This document shows positions 3,001-64,000 of a DNA stretch of 64,000 bases, piece after piece. The notes under the pieces are model-generated. The model was not told where the DNA came from and did no database searches. It was given only the letters and a program-made list of their open reading frames with translations. Position numbers and translations under genes: made by a program. The DNA comes from a virus, in IMG/VR virus record IMGVR_UViG_3300002835_000068, positions 39,273 to 103,272 of that record. The stretch is one strand, 5' to 3'. Positions within the stretch are counted from its first letter, which is position 1. Every line of letters begins with the position of its first letter.

Positions 3001-5663
3001 ATAGTAAGAAGGCTAAAAAGGACATATCTTCATTAATGGATGTGTTTGATGGCCTGCAACAAAGAATGCTTAAGATGAAGGTTCCAAAAGAATTTAGAGA
3101 CATGATTATGGGAATGTCTGCAGAAGACTTTAAGGCCATAGCAAACTTAAAGAATGAAAAAGCAATCTTTAAATTTAAAAAGGGTAAGCCAAGAACAAAG
3201 GCTAACATTGAGGGACTAACAAAAACAGGCGATGGCCTAATGAGATTTTATAGAGAAGCACAAATTGGAGAGGCTCAACTTGTAAATAAAGAAACTGTGT
3301 CAGAAATTGCAGATAAAGAAAAAGCATTTAGAATGCTTATTGCCAGCGGAGTAAGTGCAACAGATGCGCTAAAGCATGTAGAAGATGCTGCGGTAGCAGC
3401 AGCAATTGCAGCAGGAACTCTTGGCAAAGAAGGCTCACCTGAAAGAAAAGCATACATAGATGATTTAAAGAAGGCTAGTTCTGAATTAGAAAGATTTGCA
3501 CTTAGACAAAAAATGATTCAGGCAAATGAAGAGTTCAAACTTTTAGAGCAAATGCCAAAACTTATGACTGCAATGAAGGCTGCAGGAATGTCAGCAGATC
3601 AGATGGCAGCAGCACTAGAAGATCCAGCACTAGCAAAGCATTTAATTGAAGACCTCAAAGATGGAAAGGTCGACGCTAAAGAAATAGCAGACTTCCTAAA
3701 CTCTATTGAAGCCAAAAAAATTATTGATATTCAGGTAAAGTATAATGCTGGTAAGTATGGAGAAGCAGCACAGCCTGGAATTGACGCAGCAGAAAGATTA
3801 TTTGCTGCACTTGAATCTGGGATTAGAAACGGCGTTGAAGGATTCTCTTCTCCTCAAAACAAGATAGATGTTGCAACTATTCAAAAGAACAATAAGTTAA
3901 TTGCAGAAGCAGAACTTAAGGCAGCAGGATTTAGACATCAAATAGAATTAATTAATCGTGAAATTCGTGGTATGGAACGAGATATTGAAATGAACTATAC
4001 ACGACCAATCGAAGAGGCTTCAGAAAAAATCAGTGATATGGAAAGAGAACTAGAGATGAATCCAATCTTTGGTAATCGTGCTATAGGAAAGTTAAATGAT
4101 GAAAATACAAAACTTTCTAATGACTTGGCAATTATGGCAAACCAAGCAGAAAAGATTAATGAGAGATATGACAAGCAGGCAGAAGCGCTACAAAAGGTAG
4201 CAGATATTAATGATGGAATTATTGCTCAGCAGCAAAGCCAGTTAGATCTTGCAGATGCTCTTACTCAGGGAGATATATCAGCAGCAGCAAGGGCTATGCA
4301 GGCAAGTCGTGCTGACCAAGCATCAAGAAATCAAGAAGGAGTGATGGATGCTCTTGAGCAGGCACGTACAAACGAACTAGATGGTTTGCGTGGAGCAGAG
4401 AGCGGTTTGAGTCAACTGCAAATTTCTGAAAGACAGTTTGTTATAAGTCAAGAAATCTATAAGATGGAAAATAATCCAGAAAGACTTAAGATTATGGCAG
4501 ACATTTTGGCTCTGCAAGATAAAATTTATGATTTTGAAGAAGGAAGAGAAGCAGCACTTCTAAAGATTAGAGATAAAGAAGATGCAATCTATAAAATTAA
4601 TAAAGAACAACTGTGGCCTCTTGAGGATAGCATTGCAGATATGCAGCACCAAAATGATTTAGCACAGAGAAGACTTGATATAGATGTATCTAACTTGACT
4701 GTTTTAGGAAAATCAAGAGATCAGTTTGAAAAGATAAAAGCAGAAATTGAACTTAGTGAGGTAGCAGCACAAAATCTTACTGCTGTATTTGGAGGAATGC
4801 TTGCAGCCATTGAAGCAATTAGGGCTAAGTGGGCAGAGGTTATTGCAGCAATCGCAGCAGCACAAAACGCTGCAGCAGCACAGGTTGTAGCAGATGGAAT
4901 TAAAGCAAATGCAGATGCAGCAGCAGAAGAAGTAGCAGCAGATGCAGCAGCAGCAGTAGATGGAAGTGCTGGCTCAAAGAGTGATTCTGCAGCAGATGCA
5001 TATGCAGCAGCATTAGCAAAGGGTCATTTTGAATCTGCAGCAAAGGCTGCAGCAGGAGTTAGCCCAAGCAAACTAGCATTAGCAGAAAGCGGAGCAATTG
5101 GTGCAGCATCTATTGCGTCACAACTTGCAGCAGCACAAGCAAGACTTTCTGCATCAACTACAACATCAAAGCCTACACCAAAGCCTACACCAAAGCCTAC
5201 CCCAAAACCTACTCCAACGCCTACACCAAAAAAGCAGGTTGATCCAAATCCAGGAATTAAACCAGGAACAGGAGTTTACTCTGGAAGTACGTTTATACCA
5301 GCACAAAAACTTGTTCCAGGAACAGGTGTGTATGTTGGCAGCAAGTTTGTTCCCCCACAGTATAAATCTAAGGGAGGACTAATATCTGGAGTGTTGGGGA
5401 ATAGCACATTTGCTCGTGGCACAGATACAGTTCCTGCAATGCTTACTCCAGGAGAGTTTGTGATGAGCAAGTATGCTGTGCAGTCTTATGGTTTAGAAAA
5501 AATGAAGTCAATTAATAATGGATCATCAGTTGGCGACTCAGTGTATAATTATAGTATTAATGTTAATGTAGAGTCAGAAGCAAACCCTGATGAAATTGCA
5601 AGGGTTGTTATGACACAAATACGAAGCGTTGAATCACAAAAACTTAGGGGGACTAGAATCTAA
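1..5663 (+). CDS. Tape measure protein (5'-truncated by window edge)
   Basis: The reading frame is open from base 3 with no start in the window, so this is the C-terminal ~1,886 residues of a longer protein. It is Ala/Gln/Glu/Lys-rich and largely helical, with hydrophobic stretches coded at about 820-1005, long coiled coils, a Lys-Pro-Thr repeat at about 5170-5235 and a duplicated PGTGVY-x-GS-x-F unit at 5263-5350. The C-terminus carries RGTDTVPAMLTPGEFV, a hallmark I recognise from actinophage tape measures. Such proteins fill the tail tube, set its length and assist DNA entry. The next tail gene starts inside its stop codon. A TTG at 567 is internal and not the start. Confidence 0.93.
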   Translation, partial: AKLRTEAAKWEEVAAREDGKNIYTAENARALKKQADEAEIKAAELRIKAAEADIQATQLENGSATPNEIVANGTAEQGDGLRRIVDDTETTAESSEVVAGQTEELASVTQDAVNAQTENATNLSTGAQITNATTGNLNDVLQATDQTGFAQQDLAESSTNVANINEQIEAEKQRELERLKKYNAEQAALQAAENGIVPPGSQSQNDLNKNRMGSVEAYEEASNYTRDKNGHILFDPELDKDGKRQPTTLTESQIKKKKRGMRREKVGKFSGKVSGAAGTAAMVAGMAGAPPAVTAGLGAVATVAQFAPMIAGMTGPQGIVAALAAVAIGAYALNKKLEGTAIAIAKFTRSTTVSADMLKKIGEQTGKVGASELMNKRRGEGQLNTYVEVNRKSTMESAQFLEGEAGKALQNAFVANATKNGTQVAAEQFALQIAAAISDGTIAPELGQDIATQMGINLKDSVAGVRINLELRKLIGPNGEDLAKDPLEVRARIAQRSASLSEELVRKVNSKDRSEVGGNSKLSMFGTLGLIGAASGSDKTAALAVAGSSAIETAQAQADAMSMYYDEQLKTLKNELVATTNKEKQLEIQEKIVAMTKEQEAGMARLNNLVAAQISRQTSYASDIINQNKSKLFTGNNFLNDAARRQDAFFDAQKADVKAKYKGTAQEASAQRVLDLGARADEDKSFANKNEGRTFEAKINFLMQSGQMQPEQIETMMKIFKGDLKKMDTVLAVGMRLHGGAKMAELAGMLSGVDKKTAKRIMIQMSRKNPEEFDRVGKAIAVLQRSDGLEVDMQATIDTIGMPGLVELSNKLAALEALPDPIEKEAIIKFGIDNNVDMQGIIDNWDYYSKLKPEVRKEAFETYTTLFTTATSFKTQAEKDAWVKLQAENAAILKGDKGSAKYTAEYNTVIRLLTLDANGKPLPLNDFKAAAAWANKGVEAIFGSDPTIASKPGGPLDGGDKGSKKNPLDFLEELAMRIKNVRDGAFDATQPLKSMLAALNSKKAKKDISSLMDVFDGLQQRMLKMKVPKEFRDMIMGMSAEDFKAIANLKNEKAIFKFKKGKPRTKANIEGLTKTGDGLMRFYREAQIGEAQLVNKETVSEIADKEKAFRMLIASGVSATDALKHVEDAAVAAAIAAGTLGKEGSPERKAYIDDLKKASSELERFALRQKMIQANEEFKLLEQMPKLMTAMKAAGMSADQMAAALEDPALAKHLIEDLKDGKVDAKEIADFLNSIEAKKIIDIQVKYNAGKYGEAAQPGIDAAERLFAALESGIRNGVEGFSSPQNKIDVATIQKNNKLIAEAELKAAGFRHQIELINREIRGMERDIEMNYTRPIEEASEKISDMERELEMNPIFGNRAIGKLNDENTKLSNDLAIMANQAEKINERYDKQAEALQKVADINDGIIAQQQSQLDLADALTQGDISAAARAMQASRADQASRNQEGVMDALEQARTNELDGLRGAESGLSQLQISERQFVISQEIYKMENNPERLKIMADILALQDKIYDFEEGREAALLKIRDKEDAIYKINKEQLWPLEDSIADMQHQNDLAQRRLDIDVSNLTVLGKSRDQFEKIKAEIELSEVAAQNLTAVFGGMLAAIEAIRAKWAEVIAAIAAAQNAAAAQVVADGIKANADAAAEEVAADAAAAVDGSAGSKSDSAADAYAAALAKGHFESAAKAAAGVSPSKLALAESGAIGAASIASQLAAAQARLSASTTTSKPTPKPTPKPTPKPTPTPTPKKQVDPNPGIKPGTGVYSGSTFIPAQKLVPGTGVYVGSKFVPPQYKSKGGLISGVLGNSTFARGTDTVPAMLTPGEFVMSKYAVQSYGLEKMKSINNGSSVGDSVYNYSINVNVESEANPDEIARVVMTQIRSVESQKLRGTRI

Positions 5664-6319
5664 TGGCAACTAACAATTACATGTCTGGAAGAAAGAAGTA
5701 TTCTAGACCACAGGCAATGCTATTTGCTGATAACCCTGGAACAAAGGTTGATGGTTTCTACATCCCAGACGGCAGTGAAATAGGGTCCTATACAGCCTCT
5801 GAAGGCTCCAATGGCGAGTTTTTAATACTTTCGGATGATAACAGATCAGACATTAATTTTAAGCCTACCAGAATTGAAAAAAGAGAAAGAATGATTAATG
5901 GCCGAATGAGGTCATATCATATTGCAGATAAACTACAGATAACAGCATCCTGGGATATGCTCCCATCAAGAGCATATGATACCAAGGCAGACTTTGATGC
6001 TAATGGAAATGCAGATATGCTTAAGACCGCATCAAGGACAAACCCTTTAGAGTTTACAACAGATGGCGGAGCAGGCGGAGTAGAACTTCTTAATTGGTAT
6101 GAAAATCACAGAGGTTCTTTCTGGGTATATCTTTCTTACGATAAGTATACAAATTTTGAAGATACAGACACTAGCGAGATAGATAATAGATTTAATAATA
6201 TTAATAAGTATAATGAGATAGTAGAAGTTTTTTTCTCAGACTTTAGTTATTCAGTTGTAAAAAGAAGCGGTTTAAACTTTGACTTTTGGAATGTGTCTCT
6301 TACACTGGAAGAGGCATAA
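5663..6319 (+). CDS. Minor tail protein, distal-tail-like
   Basis: A 218-residue soluble protein whose ATG overlaps the tape-measure stop codon (TAATG). By position directly after the tape measure and before the large hub protein it corresponds to the distal tail (Dit) slot of siphophages. No catalytic motif is visible; aromatic-rich beta-type segments (NWYENHRGSFWVYLSY) suit a structural protein. Function is inferred from gene order only. Confidence 0.65.
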   Translation: MATNNYMSGRKKYSRPQAMLFADNPGTKVDGFYIPDGSEIGSYTASEGSNGEFLILSDDNRSDINFKPTRIEKRERMINGRMRSYHIADKLQITASWDMLPSRAYDTKADFDANGNADMLKTASRTNPLEFTTDGGAGGVELLNWYENHRGSFWVYLSYDKYTNFEDTDTSEIDNRFNNINKYNEIVEVFFSDFSYSVVKRSGLNFDFWNVSLTLEEA

Positions 6320-9300
6320 TGTTTCAAGACAAAGATTTATTAAATTATATAGAGACAAACTCTTCAGTTCAAACAAGATCATCAGTAATTGCTGAATGGA
6401 ACATGAATATAGCATCAAACATTAAGATGGTTGGAAACTATAGATACAGACCAACCCAGCAGGATTCTGCATACAGAACAATTCCAAATACTTTTGATCC
6501 ATTAGAATCTAGTACAAACGGTGTAAAATATTACACTGGTGCAACAGATGCAGACATAAAAATAGATGGTGGATTTGATGACGAAGGTATTCCAACATCC
6601 TTGTATCCAGCAAAAGATAAAATGAAGATGCTGTACTCTTTAGAAAATTGTTTTTCATATCAACGTCCACGCAGCGGAATCAATAAGGCAACATACCTTA
6701 ATGGTAAATTTTTACATAATCCAAATATCAATATGGCCAAGAGACCAAGATACTATATGCCAGATAAAAAGGATCCATTTAAATACTGGACATCTTTTAG
6801 AACAGAAAGTGGTATTGAGTATGGAGTTGCCAACAAGACAGTAAATGGAAAGAATAGAATAGAAGATGCTTGCCCATTCGTGGTTTATAAAGAGCAGATA
6901 CCAGCAAACAGAATAGTTGTAAAGATGCAAACAAATACTGGGGAGTTGGACTATGGAATATTCTCAAACTCTGCTGAAACATTTTTAGATCCCTACTTTG
7001 GAGAAAACAATAGAACTACGCCTAACAACTGGAAAATTCAAGTATTAAAAAATAATAGTTGGGTAGACGCTAAGTCTTTTTCTAGCAGTGACAAAAGAAA
7101 AGACGGTACAGCAATCATAGGATCTGATGGATACGTAGAATTGTCTTATGGATTAATAGTTCCAGTCGCATACTCAGATACATTTAATTTTATTAAAGAG
7201 ATTTCCTCTGTACTACTAAGGCCAGAGTCTGCAAATGAAGGAGATGCATTTTTGGTTGTACCAAATAGTACATCTTTAGGTACATTCCACATATGGAGTA
7301 GGGGTGCCTGGAAAACCTTTACACCAACATACGGGTGGTCCCTTGAAGATTCAGTTGTCAGTGGACTCACAAGTTTTGTAACAGATCTAACAAACCCACC
7401 ATCTTTTGTTGCTAATAATGTTACAAAATATAAAGAGTTTGAATATATTTCTGGCATCAGAATAGTTGTTGACTCAATGAATAAGTTTGATTCTACTTTT
7501 GATTTAATTGAAATATCTCCAAGGCTAACAGCAGACTTAAGCGATAGGGTAATGAAATACTCTGTAAACAAGAGTGCTTCTGATTTAGGAGTAAGCGGAT
7601 TGCCAGTAGGACAACTACTCGCCTCAACAGGATCGATTTCACTATTTGATTTTGACGATGCTTTTCATTCAGATAACCCAACAAGCATAATTAGTAGATA
7701 TGTTTCAAAAAACATTCAAATAAAACTATATGAAGTTATAACAGATACACAGGGCATTGAATACTACATGCCAATAAAAACGATGTACGCAGATGGGTTT
7801 CCAAAACTAAATAATCAATCAAAAGAAGTTTCAATAGAACTTAGAGATTTATATTTTTATTTTGAATCACAGACTGCACCACAAATGCTACTGACTAATG
7901 CCTCTGTAAGTTCTGCAGTTTCTATACTTCTTGATTCAATAGGATTTTCTAATTATGTTTTTAAAAGAGTAGAGGGCGAATCAGAAGTAATAATACCATA
8001 CTTTTTTATTCCTCCAGAAAAAAGTGTTGCAAAGGTTTTAGAGGATATTGCCATATCAACTCAGACTGCAATGTTTTTTGATGAATACAATAACTTTGTT
8101 ATGATGAGCAAAGATTATATAATGCCGTCATTAGATCAAAGACCAACAGACCTTACGCTTTATGGAACTACAGACTTTAGTGATGATGGAGTATTAAAAA
8201 ATAAAAAATCAAATAGCAAACTTTCTAATATTATAGAAATAACATCACAAGATAATGAAGTGTATAACGATGGGAAAATTGTATATACAACAAGATATAT
8301 ACAGAGATCTCTAGGAAGCATAAAGCAGGCAAGCCTTATAGATAATGAAAAAACTTGGATATACAAGCCAGTGCTTCTTTGGGAAGTTCAGGGAACTCAA
8401 AATACAAAATCTATCAATGGCGAAGTTGGAAACCAATCAACATATATGCTAAGTGCAATACCATTAAACTCAAACCTTTCTGAAAGTTTACCATCTGTAA
8501 AAAATAATAGGCTTGTAGACAATATAATGGACCTTGGAGAAGGAGTTTACTGGATAACTAGGTATAACGGATACTTCTACTCAAACGGAGAAATTATTAA
8601 GTATGATGCGGTTCAGTACAATATTTCTGGTACTGGAGATGTCTGGATCAATAATGTTCAAGAGTACGATAAGTATTTTTCATCTTTGCCGTTTAATGGA
8701 AAGATATATCCAACAGGACTAGTTAGAATTTATGCAGAGCCAAATTACGAAGAAATTTCTGGTGTATATAAACTTAAGAATGGTCCAGTTTCAAAGCATG
8801 GAAGAGGTCAGTTCGGAACGCCAGTTTCTGAGCATGGGGCAGGTTTAAACCCTTATTGGTCAAACAATTCTAATGTTCGTGGATGCACGATGCAGTCAAA
8901 GTACTTATTTGATTTAAACCAAACAGCACCTGTAACTACTGTTGGCCCAGCAGGAATAAACAATACTCTTGCACAAAAAACATCAAGAAATGGTATTATA
9001 AAAAACTTCTTAGCATCAAAATATATCTCTGAGTCAGAAGTAAACGGAATGCTATCTACACAGGCAGGTACTGTACAGTCTTCGGCTTTAGTCATGAACG
9101 GTCCAGGGTTTACTACAACAGAGTCGCCAGTTGATTTTGTTTCTTACGTTTATAAAAAATTAGAAAACAAGTATAAGCATTTTGGGACTAGAATGAGAAT
9201 TGTAGGCAAGGTTGAAAATGATGCAAATCGTGGACAAACTCCAGTAGGTGCATCAACATACTTTACTGTTCCAGGGACAACTCCAGAAAAAAGTATCAGT

Positions 9301-15885: not shown

Positions 15886-16748
15886 CGATTGAGTCTGAGG
15901 TAGACTCAGACTATATAATCTTTTGTCCATACCACAATAACAATAGAACGCCAGCAGGAGAAATAGACAAGAACAATGGAACATTTTTTTGCTTTGCCTG
16001 TCATCATGTAACTGGACTTACAGAGTTCGTAATGCATATGTCTAACAGGACTTACTTTGAAGCAGCAAGATTTATAAAAAGTAAAGAGACAGAAACAAGT
16101 ATTGAGACCGATATAGATAAGGCGCTATACAAAAAGCCAGAGTTCACACTGTTTGATGAACTAGTTCTTAAGCGTTTGCACAATAACCTTCTTTCCTTTG
16201 ATAGAGCAAAAGATTATTTTAACTACAGAAAGATAACCAAAGAGTCTGCATCAAAGTTTTCTTTAGGATACTCAGACAAACAGGATATGGTTACTGTACC
16301 TGTTCATAGCCCAGATGGTTTACCAATTGGCTTTGTTGGAAGATCTATTGAGGGCAAAGAGTTCAAGAATACTCCAGGACTTCCAAAATCAAAAACACTT
16401 TTTAATCTTCACAGGGTTAAGAGTTCTGGGAAAGTGTATGTTGTAGAGTCATCATTTGACGCTATTAGGCTTGACCAGTGTGGCTTTCCTGCAGTAGCAA
16501 CCCTTGGCTCAAACGTATCTAACATACAAATAGAATTGCTTAAAAAGTACTTTAATGATATAATTGTTATTGCAGACAACGATGAAGCAGGTGGAAATAT
16601 GAAAACTAAGATAGTTGAAAAACTTGGTTCTCGTGTATCTGTAATACAACTAAATAAGCAATATAAAGATATAGGCGACATGGACGATAAGTCAATTCAA
16701 GAACTGGACTTCCAGTTTGACAAATCAATACAGTCTATGCTAAACTAA
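15804..16748 (+). CDS. DnaG-type primase
   Basis: A 314-residue primase. An N-terminal zinc finger (CPYH ... CFACH, residues ~41-70) of the CHC2/DnaG class is followed by a TOPRIM core with VYVVESSFDAI (metal-binding glutamate) and VIADNDEAG (aspartates). The C-terminal helicase-binding domain of host DnaG is absent, giving the compact phage form. It makes RNA primers for the DnaE-type polymerase encoded downstream. The start at 15804 keeps the usual distance to the zinc finger. Confidence 0.9.
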   Translation: MDSRDRRKHTNLYTKEQIKRVLTGTGVTIESEVDSDYIIFCPYHNNNRTPAGEIDKNNGTFFCFACHHVTGLTEFVMHMSNRTYFEAARFIKSKETETSIETDIDKALYKKPEFTLFDELVLKRLHNNLLSFDRAKDYFNYRKITKESASKFSLGYSDKQDMVTVPVHSPDGLPIGFVGRSIEGKEFKNTPGLPKSKTLFNLHRVKSSGKVYVVESSFDAIRLDQCGFPAVATLGSNVSNIQIELLKKYFNDIIVIADNDEAGGNMKTKIVEKLGSRVSVIQLNKQYKDIGDMDDKSIQELDFQFDKSIQSMLN

Positions 16749-16772
16749 CATAACACAGAAAAGAGAAAACAC

Positions 16773-17426
16773 ATGGCAATACTAAGAGGAATAAAGGAAA
16801 TGGGCCCAGTACTAGACGGCCCAAAGGGTGGAGATGGTCCAAAGGTTAAGTGGCTAAAACTTGCTGACGGACAATCAGTAAAGATTCGGTTCTTAGAAGA
16901 ACTAGACGAAGATTCAGCAAACTATAACGCAGAGCGTGGACTAGCAATTGTTGTATCAGAACACACAAACCCAAAGGACTATAAGCGCAAGGCTGTAGAC
17001 ACAATGGATACAGAAGGTCGTGACTGGGCTGAAGAAATGCACCGCAAGGATCCAAAGGCTGGCTGGAGAGCACGTCTTCGCTTCTACTGCAACGTTCTTG
17101 TAGACGATGGCATTGAATCACCATATGTTGCAATCTGGTCAATGGGTATCAGCAAGCAATCATCATTCAACACAATTCGTGAGTATGCACTTGAAACAGG
17201 AAGCATCTCAAATGTACAGTGGAAGTTAAAGCGTAATGGTCAGGGAACTGAAACAAATTACACTCTTATTCCATCTGCACCAGACAAGGAACCATTTAAC
17301 TGGGGAGACATTAAGCCTTACCCACTAGAATCTGCACTACGCAAGGTTCCATACGCAGAACAAGAAGCGTTCTATTTGGGCTTTGATGGCCCATCTGCCA
17401 CCTCAGCAACTAACGCTGATTGGTAA
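16773..17426 (+). CDS. Single-stranded DNA-binding protein (probable)
   Basis: A 217-residue protein between primase and polymerase. VKWLKLADGQSVKIRFLEEL followed by beta strands is consistent with an OB fold of the gp32/gp2.5 type; the C-terminus ends in Asp-Trp. Codon choice is shifted towards C-ending codons (CGC, AAC, GAC) relative to neighbours, as expected of an abundant protein. It lies in its own frame with 24 bases upstream and a weak ribosome site. The assignment combines context and fold impression. Confidence 0.65.
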   Translation: MAILRGIKEMGPVLDGPKGGDGPKVKWLKLADGQSVKIRFLEELDEDSANYNAERGLAIVVSEHTNPKDYKRKAVDTMDTEGRDWAEEMHRKDPKAGWRARLRFYCNVLVDDGIESPYVAIWSMGISKQSSFNTIREYALETGSISNVQWKLKRNGQGTETNYTLIPSAPDKEPFNWGDIKPYPLESALRKVPYAEQEAFYLGFDGPSATSATNADW

Positions 17427-17427
17427 T

Positions 17428-20400
17428 ATGAACTACGTCGGCTTACATGTCCATACCCATTTTAGTTTATTTGATGGGATTGCTACTCCAGAAGAATACG
17501 TGAACCGTGCAGTTGAGTTAGGGATGCCTGCAATAGCCATCACTGACCACGGTACTTTATCTGGGCATAGGGAACTGCACCGTATTGCAAAAGCAAAGGG
17601 CATTAAGCCAATTCTAGGTCTAGAAGGATACATGTGTGCAGACATATCTGATACACGAGATAAGTCTGAAAGAGAAGGTCAACAAGATCTTGTCTACAAT
17701 CACATTATCCTTCTAGCCAAGAATCAAATTGGTTTAGAAAATCTTAACAAGATTAGTGAACTATCTTGGACAGATGGTTTTTTTAAGAAGCCACGATTTG
17801 ACTTTACTATTTTAGAAAAGTATAAAGAGGGTATTATCGTTACCTCTGCTTGTCCAAGTAGCGTTTTAGTTAAAGCACTTGAGGAAGAAGAGTTTGCACT
17901 TGCTAAGAAGTACATTTCTTGGTTTAAAGAACGTTTTGGAGATGATTACTACATTGAAGTCATGCCACATAACGAAGCACACATTAATAAATATCTTATT
18001 GCACTTGCTGACGAGTTTGAAGTCAAGGTAGTTGTAACTCCAGACTGTCACCATGTTGACTCATCACAAAAGGAAGTTCAAGAGTTTAAGTTGCTCATGA
18101 ACACACACGGCAAGGTATTAAAAGATACAACATACGAAAAGTCAAAAAAGAAAACAAACATGATGGAACGCCTTGACTACCTTTATGGAGAAGACCGTCA
18201 GATTACTTTTAATAAGTTTGATATTCATCTGCTCTCATATGAAGAGATGAAGGCAGCGATGGAATCGCAGGGGATTGATCGACCAGACATCTACTCAAAT
18301 ACACTCCTATTAGCAGATACAGTAGGAGACTATGGCATTCAAGATGGCATGAATCTTCTACCTGTACAGTATAAGAGTCCAGATAAAGAACTAAAGAAGA
18401 TTGCATACGAAGGTTTAGAGCAAAGAGGTTTTGCAAATAACCCAGAATATGTTGCAAGAGTTGAAGAAGAACTTGAAATTATTAAAGATAAGAAGTTTGC
18501 TCCATACTTCCTTGTAGTTCAAAGCATGATTGCTTGGGCTAAGAAAGAAGGAATAATGGTAGGGCCAGGTCGAGGATCTGCTGCTGGATCATTGGTTTGC
18601 TACGCTCTTGGAATTACAGATGTAGATCCTATTAAGTATGGACTTTTGTTTTTCCGTTTTATTAATCCAGAGCGCAACGACTTCCCTGATATTGATACAG
18701 ATATTCAAGACTCTCGTCGTGATGAGGTTAAAGACTATCTTGTTAGACAATATAGGCACGTTGCATCTATTGCGACATTCTTACAGTTTAAAGATAAGGG
18801 TGTTGTCCGAGATGTTGCACGAGTATTAAACATTCCTCTTACAGACGTTAATAAGGTACTTAAGTTAGTTGACACTTGGGAAGACTTCTGCACATCAAAG
18901 TCAACAAGAGAGTTTAGAGAAAAGTATCCAGAGGTAGAGATTTATGGAGAGCAACTTCGTGGTCGCATTCGTGGTACAGGTATTCATGCTGCTGGTGTTG
19001 TAACATCTAAGGATCCAATCTTTAGATATGCACCAATGGAAACAAGATCATCTCCAGGTTCTGATGAAAGAATTCCTGTTGTTGGTGTTGATATGGAAGA
19101 AGCAGAGCGAATTGGCCTTATTAAGATTGATGCTTTGGGTCTAAAGACTCTTAGTGTTATTCAAGATGCTGTTGCAATGATTAAAGAGAATCATTACAAG
19201 GATATTGATTTACACTCGCTTGACCTTGCAGACCCAAAGATTTATGAAATGCTTTCTGACGGCTACACAAAAGGTGTATTCCAGTGTGAAGCAACACCAT
19301 ACACAAACCTTCTTGTTAAGATGGGTGTAAAGAACTTTAACGAACTTGCTGCATCAAATGCTCTTGTTCGTCCAGGTGCTATGAATACAATTGGTAAAGA
19401 TTACATTGCACGTAAGCACGGAAAGCAGAATGTATCTTATAGTCACCAAATTATGAAACCATTTACGGAGGATACTTATGGTTGCGTTTTATACCAGGAA
19501 CAAGTTATGCAAGCATGCGTACACCTTGGACAGATGTCCATGTCAGAAGCAGATAAAGTTAGAAAGATCATTGGAAAGAAAAAAGATGCTAAAGACTTTG
19601 ATGAGTTCAAAGACAGGTTTGTCAAGGGCGCTTCTGCCTTTGTTAGTCCCAATCAGGCTCTTGATCTATGGCATGACTTTGAAGCGCATGCGGGTTACTC
19701 GTTCAACAAGTCTCATGCGGTTGCTTACTCTACGCTCTCGTATTGGACGGCGTGGCTAAAGTATTATTATCCACTAGAGTTTATGTTTGCCCTTCTTAAA
19801 AATGAAAAGGACAAGGATAACAGAACTGAGTACCTTATTGAGGCAAAGCGTATGGGGATTCCTGTAAAGTTACCTCATATCAACGACTCAGACTTTGACT
19901 TTAAGATTGAAGGTAAAGGTATTAGATTTGGCCTGACTGGTATTAAGTACATATCAAGCAACATTGCAGAAAAGTATATTGCTGCAAGACCTTTTAAGAC
20001 ATTGAAAGAGGTGGAGGAGTTTACTTTTACCAAAGGTAATGGGGTAAACAGTCGTGCACTTCAAGCAATGAATATGGTTGGCGCTTTAACGTTTCCAGAT
20101 AATCCAAGAAACGATAGTCAGATTAAAGAAAACCTATACGAATATTTAAACCTTCCAGAGTTTAATATTACAATTCCTTCACACTACTACGCATTTATAC
20201 AGGATGTGGAAGAGTTTGAGGAAAAGGGGTCATATGTTTTACTGGGTATGGTAAAATCAATTAAACGAGGAACAGGATGGTCACGAGTTGAAGTTTTGGA
20301 CAAGACTGGTAGTGTTGGTATATTTGATGAAGAAGGAACGACTATTGAGACTGGTCGTACTTACCTTATTCTTTGTAATGATAACAGGATTGTTTCTGCA

Positions 20401-26153: not shown

Positions 26154-26309
26154 ATGGCTGCTAAACTATATACAAGTGAAGTCTTTATGCGTAAGAGGTA
26201 TCTTGTGGATAAAAAGACTCCAGAAGAGATTGCAAAGGAGTGCGGATCTAGTGTTGAAACTATATACGTATACCTTGCTAAATTTGGATTAAGGAAATCA
26301 AAAAGATGA
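26154..26309 (+). CDS. Small HTH DNA-binding protein
   Basis: A 51-residue protein. TPEEIAKECGSSVETIYVYL is a compact helix-turn-helix of the resolvase/sigma-region-4 type, followed by a basic tail (KFGLRKSKR). The ATG lies 4 bases after the RuvC-like stop, which is favoured over an upstream in-frame start at 26052 inside that gene. Possibly a regulator of late genes or a packaging accessory. Confidence 0.6.
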   Translation: MAAKLYTSEVFMRKRYLVDKKTPEEIAKECGSSVETIYVYLAKFGLRKSKR

Positions 26310-62481: not shown

Positions 62482-62711
62482 GACTGCTCCTTAGCGTACA
62501 TAATCTTAAACTCTAACTCATCCCTATTTTCTGCAACTGTTCTGGCAGTCCAATTAATCAAAGATATGGTTCTGGTAATATCATTATGTGATACATCCTC
62601 AGACTTGGCAACCTGAAGATATCTAGTGATATCATTTTTGAGGTTTTCTAGGACAAAGACAAAATCCTCTTCGTATTGGTGCATTTGCTTCTTATTTTTT
62701 TTAGTAATCAT
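62478..62711 (-). CDS. Small helical hypothetical protein
   Basis: A 77-residue helical protein (begins MITKKNKKQMHQYEEDFVFV). First gene of a leftward unit, with a consensus promoter ending 6 bases before ATG 62711. Confidence 0.6.
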   Translation of the reverse strand: MITKKNKKQMHQYEEDFVFVLENLKNDITRYLQVAKSEDVSHNDITRTISLINWTARTVAENRDELEFKIMYAKEQS

Positions 62712-62717
62712 AAACCA

Positions 62718-62746
62718 ATCATATCAAATTTGCCACGGTATGTCAA
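62718..62746 (-). promoter_or_regulatory. Consensus promoter, leaderless geometry
   Basis: Minus-strand TTGACA (62746-62741), 17 bases, TATGAT (62723-62718), 6 bases to ATG 62711. Lies back to back with a rightward promoter. Confidence 0.8.
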
Positions 62747-62747
62747 G

Positions 62748-62753
62748 TATAAT
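62748..62753 (+). promoter_or_regulatory. -10 element (TATAAT), leaderless geometry
   Basis: TATAAT 6 bases before ATG 62760; its upstream region overlaps the -35 and spacer of the leftward promoter. Confidence 0.6.
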
Positions 62754-62759
62754 GAACCT

Positions 62760-63077
62760 ATGGATGAAGCAGTCTTATATATACTATACAGCCCACTACA
62801 TAAGGCTGTCAAGGTAGGTATATCAGATATAAGCGGAAGAAGGTTTGCAAGCCATAGGACCAAGGGTTGGATACTAATTAAGTATTGGCATTTTTTCGAA
62901 CGGGATAAGGCAAGAAAGGTCGAAACCCTAGTACTAAGAACACTAAGGGAAAGATATGGACATTTTCTGGATAAGGCAGATATGCCTCAAAGCGGATACA
63001 CAGAGACCTTTGATGCCTCAAAGATAACTCGTAGGGCCTTGATCCGTATGGTCAATAAAGCAATTAAAGAGGTTTGA
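62760..63077 (+). CDS. GIY-YIG-type nuclease (T5orf172-like)
   Basis: A 105-residue protein. AVLYILYSPLHKAVKVGISD replaces the GIY-YIG strands, followed by FASHRTKGW, the helix KARKVETLVLRTLRERYGHF (Glu) and SGYTETFDAS. This fits the T5orf172/Meiothermus-type GIY-YIG family. ATG 62760 is fixed by the -10 six bases upstream. Could be a homing or DNA-processing nuclease. Confidence 0.75.
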   Translation: MDEAVLYILYSPLHKAVKVGISDISGRRFASHRTKGWILIKYWHFFERDKARKVETLVLRTLRERYGHFLDKADMPQSGYTETFDASKITRRALIRMVNKAIKEV

Positions 63078-63286
63078 TACCCTGGCATTTTGGACACTTG
63101 GATGTAGGGTTTGATACCCCATAAGGTACTTGATACATACCACCACAGTTAAAGCATAGGACATCTAACATTATCCAGTCATCCTTATCTGTTGTAGGTA
63201 GGCCATATAGTTAAGAAATATGAATAGGCCAAGCATGATGATTAGGAAAGGTTTCATATATCAAGTATAGCATGATGGTTTGATAG

Positions 63287-63340
63287 TTATCCACACCCTG
63301 ATAGGCTAAAAATGTCATAGTTATCCACATGTTATCCACA
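63287..63340 (+). repeat. Three perfect DnaA boxes (TTATCCACA)
   Basis: TTATCCACA at 63287-63295, 63321-63329 and 63332-63340, all in the same orientation; a near match, TTATCCAGT, is at 63171. Confidence 0.8.
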
Positions 63341-63445
63341 ATTAAATGTTACTGATTATGTTGTTAGACATTCTAGAAGTGGAGTGAAGTGGAGGATAGT
63401 GGGTTAGGGAGCCCTTTTATAGATGGGGTCGTAATCTCTAGCGGC

Positions 63446-63516
63446 CAAACCTTCATATCTCCAAACCTTTATAGCCGCATTTTACCACAAACCTTTATAT
63501 CTGTCAAACCTTTATA
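63446..63516. repeat. CAAACCTTTATA iteron-like repeats
   Basis: CAAACCTT(C/T)ATA at 63446-63457, 63462-63473, 63488-63499 and 63505-63516; inverse copies TATAAAGGTTTG at 63627-63638 and close variants at about 63659, 63971 and 63985 to the window end. Shorter GGTTTG cores occur at 63071, 63108, 63277, 63550, 63689 and 63731. Confidence 0.75.
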
Positions 63517-63574
63517 TGCATGGTTTGGGCATTATAACCTATAAATTATGGTTTGTCAAGCCCATTTTATGCAT

Positions 63575-63599
63575 AAAAAAATCTCCCAAAATCAGGAGA
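63575..63599 (-). terminator. Leftward rho-independent terminator
   Basis: On the minus strand TCTCC, 8-base loop, GGAGA, followed by seven T (63581-63575). It would end transcripts from the gene at 63937-63749 before they enter the DnaA-box region. Confidence 0.75.
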
Positions 63600-63748
63600 A
63601 ATTGTCGATAAATCGTAATAAAAATATATAAAGGTTTGATAAATATTTAAAAATCAGGATAAAAGGTTTGTATATGTTTTAGTACTAGTGGTTTGGTATA
63701 TAATCTCTTTATCCCCTGGCAAAAACGGCCAGGTTTGGGGAAAAATTT

Positions 63749-63937
63749 TTAGGCGTTCGTAATCTTATTTTCAGTTTCTTGATCCACCTGAAACTCGGCG
63801 GGAGAGAAAGAGAAGAACCTATTAACTATAGGAACATGCTTAGTGATAGATACAAAACCATTCCACATGTTATCTGAGAATGCTTGATAGCCTTTAGGAT
63901 CTCTTTGTTGATATGCTGCAAAGTGTCTTGGGCTCAT
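63749..63937 (-). CDS. Small hypothetical protein
   Basis: A 62-residue protein (start MSPRHFAAYQQRDPKGYQAF). ATG 63937 is set by a -10 element 6 bases upstream; an earlier ATG at 63952 lies in the -10 region. No motif recognised; position next to the repeat cluster could mean a replication accessory role. Confidence 0.6.
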   Translation of the reverse strand: MSPRHFAAYQQRDPKGYQAFSDNMWNGFVSITKHVPIVNRFFSFSPAEFQVDQETENKITNA

Positions 63938-63943
63938 AGATAC

Positions 63944-63972
63944 ATTATACACCTGATATTAAGGTTTGACAA
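63944..63972 (-). promoter_or_regulatory. Promoter, leaderless geometry, overlapping a repeat
   Basis: Minus-strand TTGTCA (63972-63967), 17 bases, TATAAT (63949-63944), 6 bases to ATG 63937. The -35 overlaps a CAAACCTT repeat, so a repeat-binding protein could regulate it. Confidence 0.7.
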
Positions 63973-64000
63973 ATAAAGGTTTGTATGGTATAAGGTTTGG

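Follow-up and report, generated by a model that had tools for sequence, protein, structure and literature searches.

A probable DnaA-dependent replication origin in gene-free DNA of a phage related to Stanwilliamsviridae

The right end of the stretch of DNA analysed here (the window: 64,000 nucleotides, bases 39273-103272 of the 103,272-bp linear virus record IMGVR_UViG_3300002835_000068) most likely holds, at about 63280-63740, the DnaA-dependent replication origin of the phage; the phage thus seems to borrow DnaA, its host's initiator, for starting DNA copying. This reading agrees in part with the original prediction and draws support from a conserved tandem pair of DnaA boxes with its trios and surroundings, from a match to the BUS layout described for bacterial origins, and from box clusters in the gene-free DNA of Streptomyces relatives.

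Elements of the candidate origin

The window ends where the record ends and not where the genome ends, as the record stops inside the feature and shows no terminal overlap or circularity over its 103,272 bp. A contig with 100% identity over the last 6,976 bp of the record, and 4,794 bp more beyond it (L085), represents the same phage; in this extension the repeats described below go on slightly past the window end, and to the right of the site come leftward early genes, one of them a DUF932 gene. The origin had been placed at 63078-64000, in what was taken to be the only long gene-free stretch. This holds for 63172-63748, which is without genes, and fails for the remainder, where two minus-strand ORFs are found, one of 67 aa (63749-63952) lying inside and a zinc-ribbon-like one of 35 aa (63064-63171) overlapping the left edge. 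In the window and in most relatives, the left flank is formed by a GIY-YIG/T5orf172-like ORF (62676-63077, plus strand; Pfam 17.5 bits at a cut-off of 20; phrog_681 endonuclease, E 4e-8), which runs rightward amid leftward genes and whose DNA is about 80-90% identical in many relatives. DNA searches against annotated phages gave no match with the 1-kb region as query, and short chance-like matches only with its 141-bp core.

Three exact DnaA boxes, TTATCCACA, all on the plus strand and together covering 54 bases, were confirmed at 63287, 63321 and 63332, as had been claimed. Box 1 (63287-63295) lies 34 bp upstream of a tandem pair, TTATCCACA-TG-TTATCCACA (63321-63340, pitch 11 bp), which consists of box 2 (63321-63329) and box 3 (63332-63340), and the window contains one further copy at 26204. 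The 103-kb record was simulated 60 times with an order-2 Markov model, and the largest number of boxes in any 60 bp was one, compared with the three observed. The pair is followed by a 5-bp spacer and seven DnaA-trios (63341-63366), reading 3'-TAC AAT GAC TAA TAC AAC AAT-5' on the bottom strand; the trios proper occupy 63346-63366 and start 16 bp from the end of the pair's first box. BUS has been defined by DnaA boxes, often tandem and no more than 3 bp apart, which a short spacer separates from three or more trinucleotides whose middle base is adenine, the consensus of the DnaA-trio being 3'-GAT-5' (PMC8287927). The phage has tandem TTATCCACA boxes within the 3-bp limit and more than the three middle-A trios called for within 16 bp of the first box. 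We propose the spacer-trio segment (63341-63366) as the strand-opening site, and an AT-rich segment at 63570-63689 (75-82% A+T, 96th-99.5th percentile of the genome) as an alternative or second unwinding element. To the right of the trios are three plus-strand AGTGG(AG) elements with a 10-bp pitch (63378-63402; starts at 63378, 63388 and 63398), which are inverted TCCAC cores and possibly weak opposite-facing DnaA sites, and a TCGTAATC element (63429-63436, plus strand), with more copies at 63613 and 63757 and, past the window end, at 64018 and 64052. A structured-RNA reading of the core was rejected, as 0 of 17 predicted pairs carried a double change (no covariation), and Rfam returned tRNAs only.

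Repeats, promoters and replication genes

The remainder of the region is rich in GGTTTG repeats. The 12-mer CAAACCTTTATA is found in four exact copies (63462, 63488 and 63505 on the plus strand, 63627 on the minus strand) and with one mismatch at three further sites (63446, 63957 and 63972), so that the count of at least seven given earlier stands once a single mismatch is allowed. Four copies reading TATAAAGGTTTG on the minus strand occupy 63446-63516 (63446, 63462, 63488 and 63505, one with a mismatch, in steps of 16, 26 and 17); six plus-strand GGTTTG copies lie at 63522-63737 (63522, 63550, 63633, 63665, 63690 and 63732), with a near-invariant ATATAAAGGTTTG among them at 63626-63638; and further plus-strand repeats at 63957-64000 (GGTTTG at 63963, 63978 and 63994) continue past the window end in L085. 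Over 201 repeat sites, the core is GGTTTG with an A/T-rich stretch before it that often reads ATAAA. GGTTTG reaches 18 per kb here versus 0.96 per kb genome-wide, and AAGGTTTG has nine sites in 0.8 kb versus a simulated maximum of two (order-2 Markov); the other 102 kb of the record has 17 sites, on both strands. An even spread of the repeats over the genome, in the manner of stoperators, had been named beforehand as a result that would speak against an origin; the repeats are concentrated here, and a stoperator system of the mycobacteriophage type was rejected. A recurrent plus-strand module, GGTTTGGGGAAAA-N(about 12)-TCGTAA, was also observed at 63732-63763 and, past the window in L085, at about 63994-64060 and 66774-66840. 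It looks like a bipartite regulatory element, and a similar TTTCCCC...TTCGTAAA repeat occurs in the phage LukeCage.

Two minus-strand promoters lie within the array. P1 (63531-63559) scores 12/12, with a -35 TTGACA (63554-63559) and a -10 TATAAT (63531-63536) separated by a 17-bp spacer, and P2 (63479-63507) has its -35 TTGACA (63502-63507) inside AAGGTTTGACA and a -10 TAAAAT (63479-63484) with extended TG. Among 15 aligned loci, P1 is perfect in 13 and scores 11/12 in the other two, while an equivalent of P2, about 50 bp beyond P1, scores 10-12 of 12 in 12. The predicted overlap of repeats with a -35 element is indeed present at both promoters, where repeat copies adjoin or lie within TTGACA (63559 and 63507), and repeats overlie or flank the -35, spacer and start region of both. 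A terminator-like hairpin with a T run (63582-63599, minus strand), a consensus match only, appears placed to insulate P1 from leftward transcription arriving from the right. Given that the repeats overlap or flank P1 and P2, and that leftward transcripts would cross the trios, we take the repeats to be operators for promoters that belong to the origin itself. They look more like such operators than like iterons of a known Rep system, since no Rep-type initiator was found among the tested proteins and the repeats are placed over and beside promoters, which makes the operator the simpler reading; moreover, the direct repetition in helical register expected of iterons is lacking, with unequal steps and mixed orientation. 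The description of the site as iteron-rich thus finds no support here, and a protein binding the repeats may possibly have a role in replication.

The phage carries genes for helicase, primase, SSB, polymerase, RecA-like, Cas4-like and RuvC-like proteins, and no initiator (Rep-type or O-like) was found among about 20 of its proteins tested, consistent with the earlier picture of a phage with helicase, primase and polymerase and no recognised initiator. Most of the small early proteins gave no match to a functionally characterised family. On contig L002, the C-terminal domains (SLAPMTKVRMADGS...) of two repeat-rich proteins (5379-7976 and 16574-18178) are alike and presumably resemble Hint/intein-type domains. 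The TerL of the window phage shares 55% identity with its counterpart in Streptomyces phages of Stanwilliamsviridae, and from this kinship and the low GC we infer a host among freshwater actinobacteria of Nanopelagicales type; a search of genome contigs with phage proteins of host-like character returned no relative. The GC-skew change suggested as a check is absent at the site, the skew turning with gene strand near 57.5 kb, and strand composition has no consistent left-right difference in eight loci, where skew follows gene strand and is confounded by transcription. Such a change is a supporting sign of a BUS-type origin and not a defining one.

In the mechanism proposed, host DnaA would bind the three boxes, and a DnaA-ATP filament starting from the tandem pair would run rightward onto the trios, opening the duplex there, so that the DnaB-type helicase, primase, SSB and DnaE-type polymerase of the phage could then load. 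A phage regulator would bind the GGTTTG repeats and control P1 and P2, and because transcripts from these promoters would cross the opening site, early transcription and initiation would be controlled at one place.

Conservation among relatives and other readings of the site

The core was aligned over 15 mutually related loci, namely L085 for the window phage and 14 other relatives. Some of these were found by repeat pattern or box-pair pattern, and for them the searched element is not independent evidence; five distinct loci reached via TerL instead of a motif (G001, G002, G005, G006/G008 and G007) share the same anatomy. The tandem pair is present in 15/15 loci with a pitch of 11-12 bp and a gap of 2-3 bp (2 bp in the window), and box 1 precedes it by 32-34 bp in most relatives. 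The order of the module in relatives is box pair, trios, three AGTGGAG-type elements, TCGTAAT, and repeats around leftward sigma-70 promoters. Invariant in all 15 are GTTATCCACA, TTATCCACA, the block TTACTGAT within the trio segment, AGTGGAG, the next GTGGAG 10 bp on, and the TCGTAAT of the TCGTAATC element. The motif search in relatives proposed with the prediction thus found the box pair, trios and surroundings strongly conserved in the 14 others. Relatives have 5-8 trios (seven in the window) after a spacer of 2-5 bp, and shuffling gave P 0.000-0.043 per sequence, a weak test for single sequences whose values must not be multiplied because the loci are related. Among 12 contigs in which two copies of CAAACCTTTATA stand side by side, the tandem pair occurs at its usual place in seven; one contig has just a single box, and in four no exact box is nearby. 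Repeats and boxes therefore do not always go together.

Secondary tandem pairs of TTATCCACA that lack trios, AGTGGAG elements and a repeat array occur 5-13 kb rightward in some relatives (G002:71950-71969 and 77235-77255; L091:11142-11162; G023:16213-16232; L155:6693-6712), and several adjoin CRP/GlxR-like TGTGA-N6-TCACA palindromes and TTACGA motifs. They are possibly DnaA-regulated early promoters. Their existence means that boxes alone do not define an origin, and their nearness to CRP-like palindromes that DnaA may also act on transcription. Another viral contig (L127, IMGVR_UViG_3300050343_000022) has seven TTATCCACA boxes in about 115 bp, partly with 11-bp pitch, possibly a DnaA-box array elsewhere. 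It is improbable that the site is a promoter/operator hub only, with host DnaA and a phage regulator controlling leftward early promoters as transcription factors and with replication beginning at some other place. Such a hub would fit the conservation of P1 and P2 and the repeats that cover their -35, spacer and start region, as well as the relatives' other tandem boxes beside CRP-like palindromes, apparently upstream of early genes; however, those secondary pairs are the ones without trios and TTACTGAT/AGTGGAG elements, and a hub leaves unexplained the trios, the fixed pair pitch, and why TTACTGAT and the AGTGGAG block, at a long distance downstream of the promoters, are invariant. A decoy that titrates host DnaA and halts host replication is highly improbable: high-affinity boxes in a gene-free stretch would serve it, but titration needs number and not arrangement, and the site has only three boxes, whose distances to the trios and the remaining conserved elements are fixed.

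In Streptomyces relatives, clusters of TTATCCACA are likewise retained in gene-free DNA, accompanied by different repeats, the type differing by subfamily (GGTTTG type, ATATAAGAC, palindromic TTGAACGTTCAA). An inverted TTATCCACA pair lies in a gene-free stretch of LukeCage, Yaboi, Wofford and Samisti12, with a third copy in Samisti12, and Mildred21 has one exact copy; in these five Boydwoodruffvirinae the boxes start 58-94 bp before the start of the terminal repeat, which a TGTGTAAT element adjoins. LukeCage, where the site is at about 120.8 kb, has ATATAAGAC repeats and TTCGTAA copies around its boxes. Among Loccivirinae, Gilson (L250) and Annadreamy (L256) have a tandem pair 12 bp apart and a third box 255 bp on, and in BillNye (L252) the tandem pair, 13 bp apart, is joined by an inverted box and, 255 bp beyond that, by a fourth; in all three, this last TTATCCACA lies exactly 255 bp from the cluster's nearest box. 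The cluster occupies the largest gene-free stretch examined in Gilson and Annadreamy and a smaller gap in BillNye, and the terminal repeat of these phages starts 5-6.5 kb away, at an end with its own GGTAATA-type element; in Gilson the boxes are at about 121.0 kb and the terminal-repeat start at 127.6 kb. In Rhodococcus phage Trina (TerL 41%) no box was found in the gene-free stretch near the end.

The closeness of box and terminal-repeat start beside TGTGTAAT in the five Boydwoodruffvirinae speaks for a packaging site, at which terminase would recognise the AGTGGAG-type repeats and cut to generate one end of a long direct terminal repeat, with the DnaA boxes simply lying nearby. Short tandem repeats are common at terminase sites, and a DUF932 gene (50% identity) lies to the right in both the window clade and Boydwoodruffvirinae. 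Yet this reading is decidedly improbable, the main argument being the distance of the Loccivirinae clusters from the terminal repeat, by which the boxes are not simply a packaging signal; the separate element at the Loccivirinae end also counts against it, no GTAATA/G-type end element was found at this site in the window phage, and DnaA boxes are not known to play a part in packaging. Against the replication origin we count the missing skew change, the boxes by the terminus in Boydwoodruffvirinae, the secondary pairs and the repeat contigs without the pair. As a tentative wider proposal, somewhat doubtful at present, a large actinobacterial phage family without a recognised initiator gene might start from an oriC-like DnaA module inside its own promoter/operator array, with a nearly fixed distance to the packaging end in one subfamily tying host-driven initiation to genome-end formation.

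Comparison with known systems

The best-known cases of dependence on DnaA are plasmids and prophages of plasmid-like type, and our literature search found no paper on origins of Stanwilliamsviridae or of the window phage's clade. A BUS conserved across a phage clade would be a natural comparative set for asking which origin elements DnaA needs, would tie phage timing to host DnaA-ATP levels, and would offer a route to locating origins in phages without an initiator gene. The terminal-repeat ends of Stanwilliamsviridae (Streptomyces BE phages, PMC5764925) are akin to the present site through TerL and through the TTATCCACA near the terminal-repeat start in Boydwoodruffvirinae, from which the Loccivirinae, with boxes away from the end, differ. 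Iteron origins with DnaA boxes, such as P1 oriR, RK2, F and pSC101 (PMC4980987), likewise combine boxes, repeat arrays and a nearby AT-rich segment. Unlike them, the phage has no Rep initiator among the tested proteins, and its repeats are irregular, in both orientations, on promoters and of subfamily-specific sequence. Lambda uses its own O protein, whereas no O-like protein was found among those tested here and the boxes are of DnaA type. A likeness to the lambda-type transcription-coupled origin lies in the promoter transcript proposed to cross the origin (PMC3985674). A close parallel is the BUS of bacterial oriC, as in Bacillus subtilis (PMC8287927, PMC6669920): although the present module, known from sequence, sits in a phage genome with adjoining repeats and promoters and has three opposite-facing GTGGAG-type elements outside the BUS definition, it shares with BUS the tandem boxes no more than 3 bp apart, the short spacer, and at least three trios on the expected strand.
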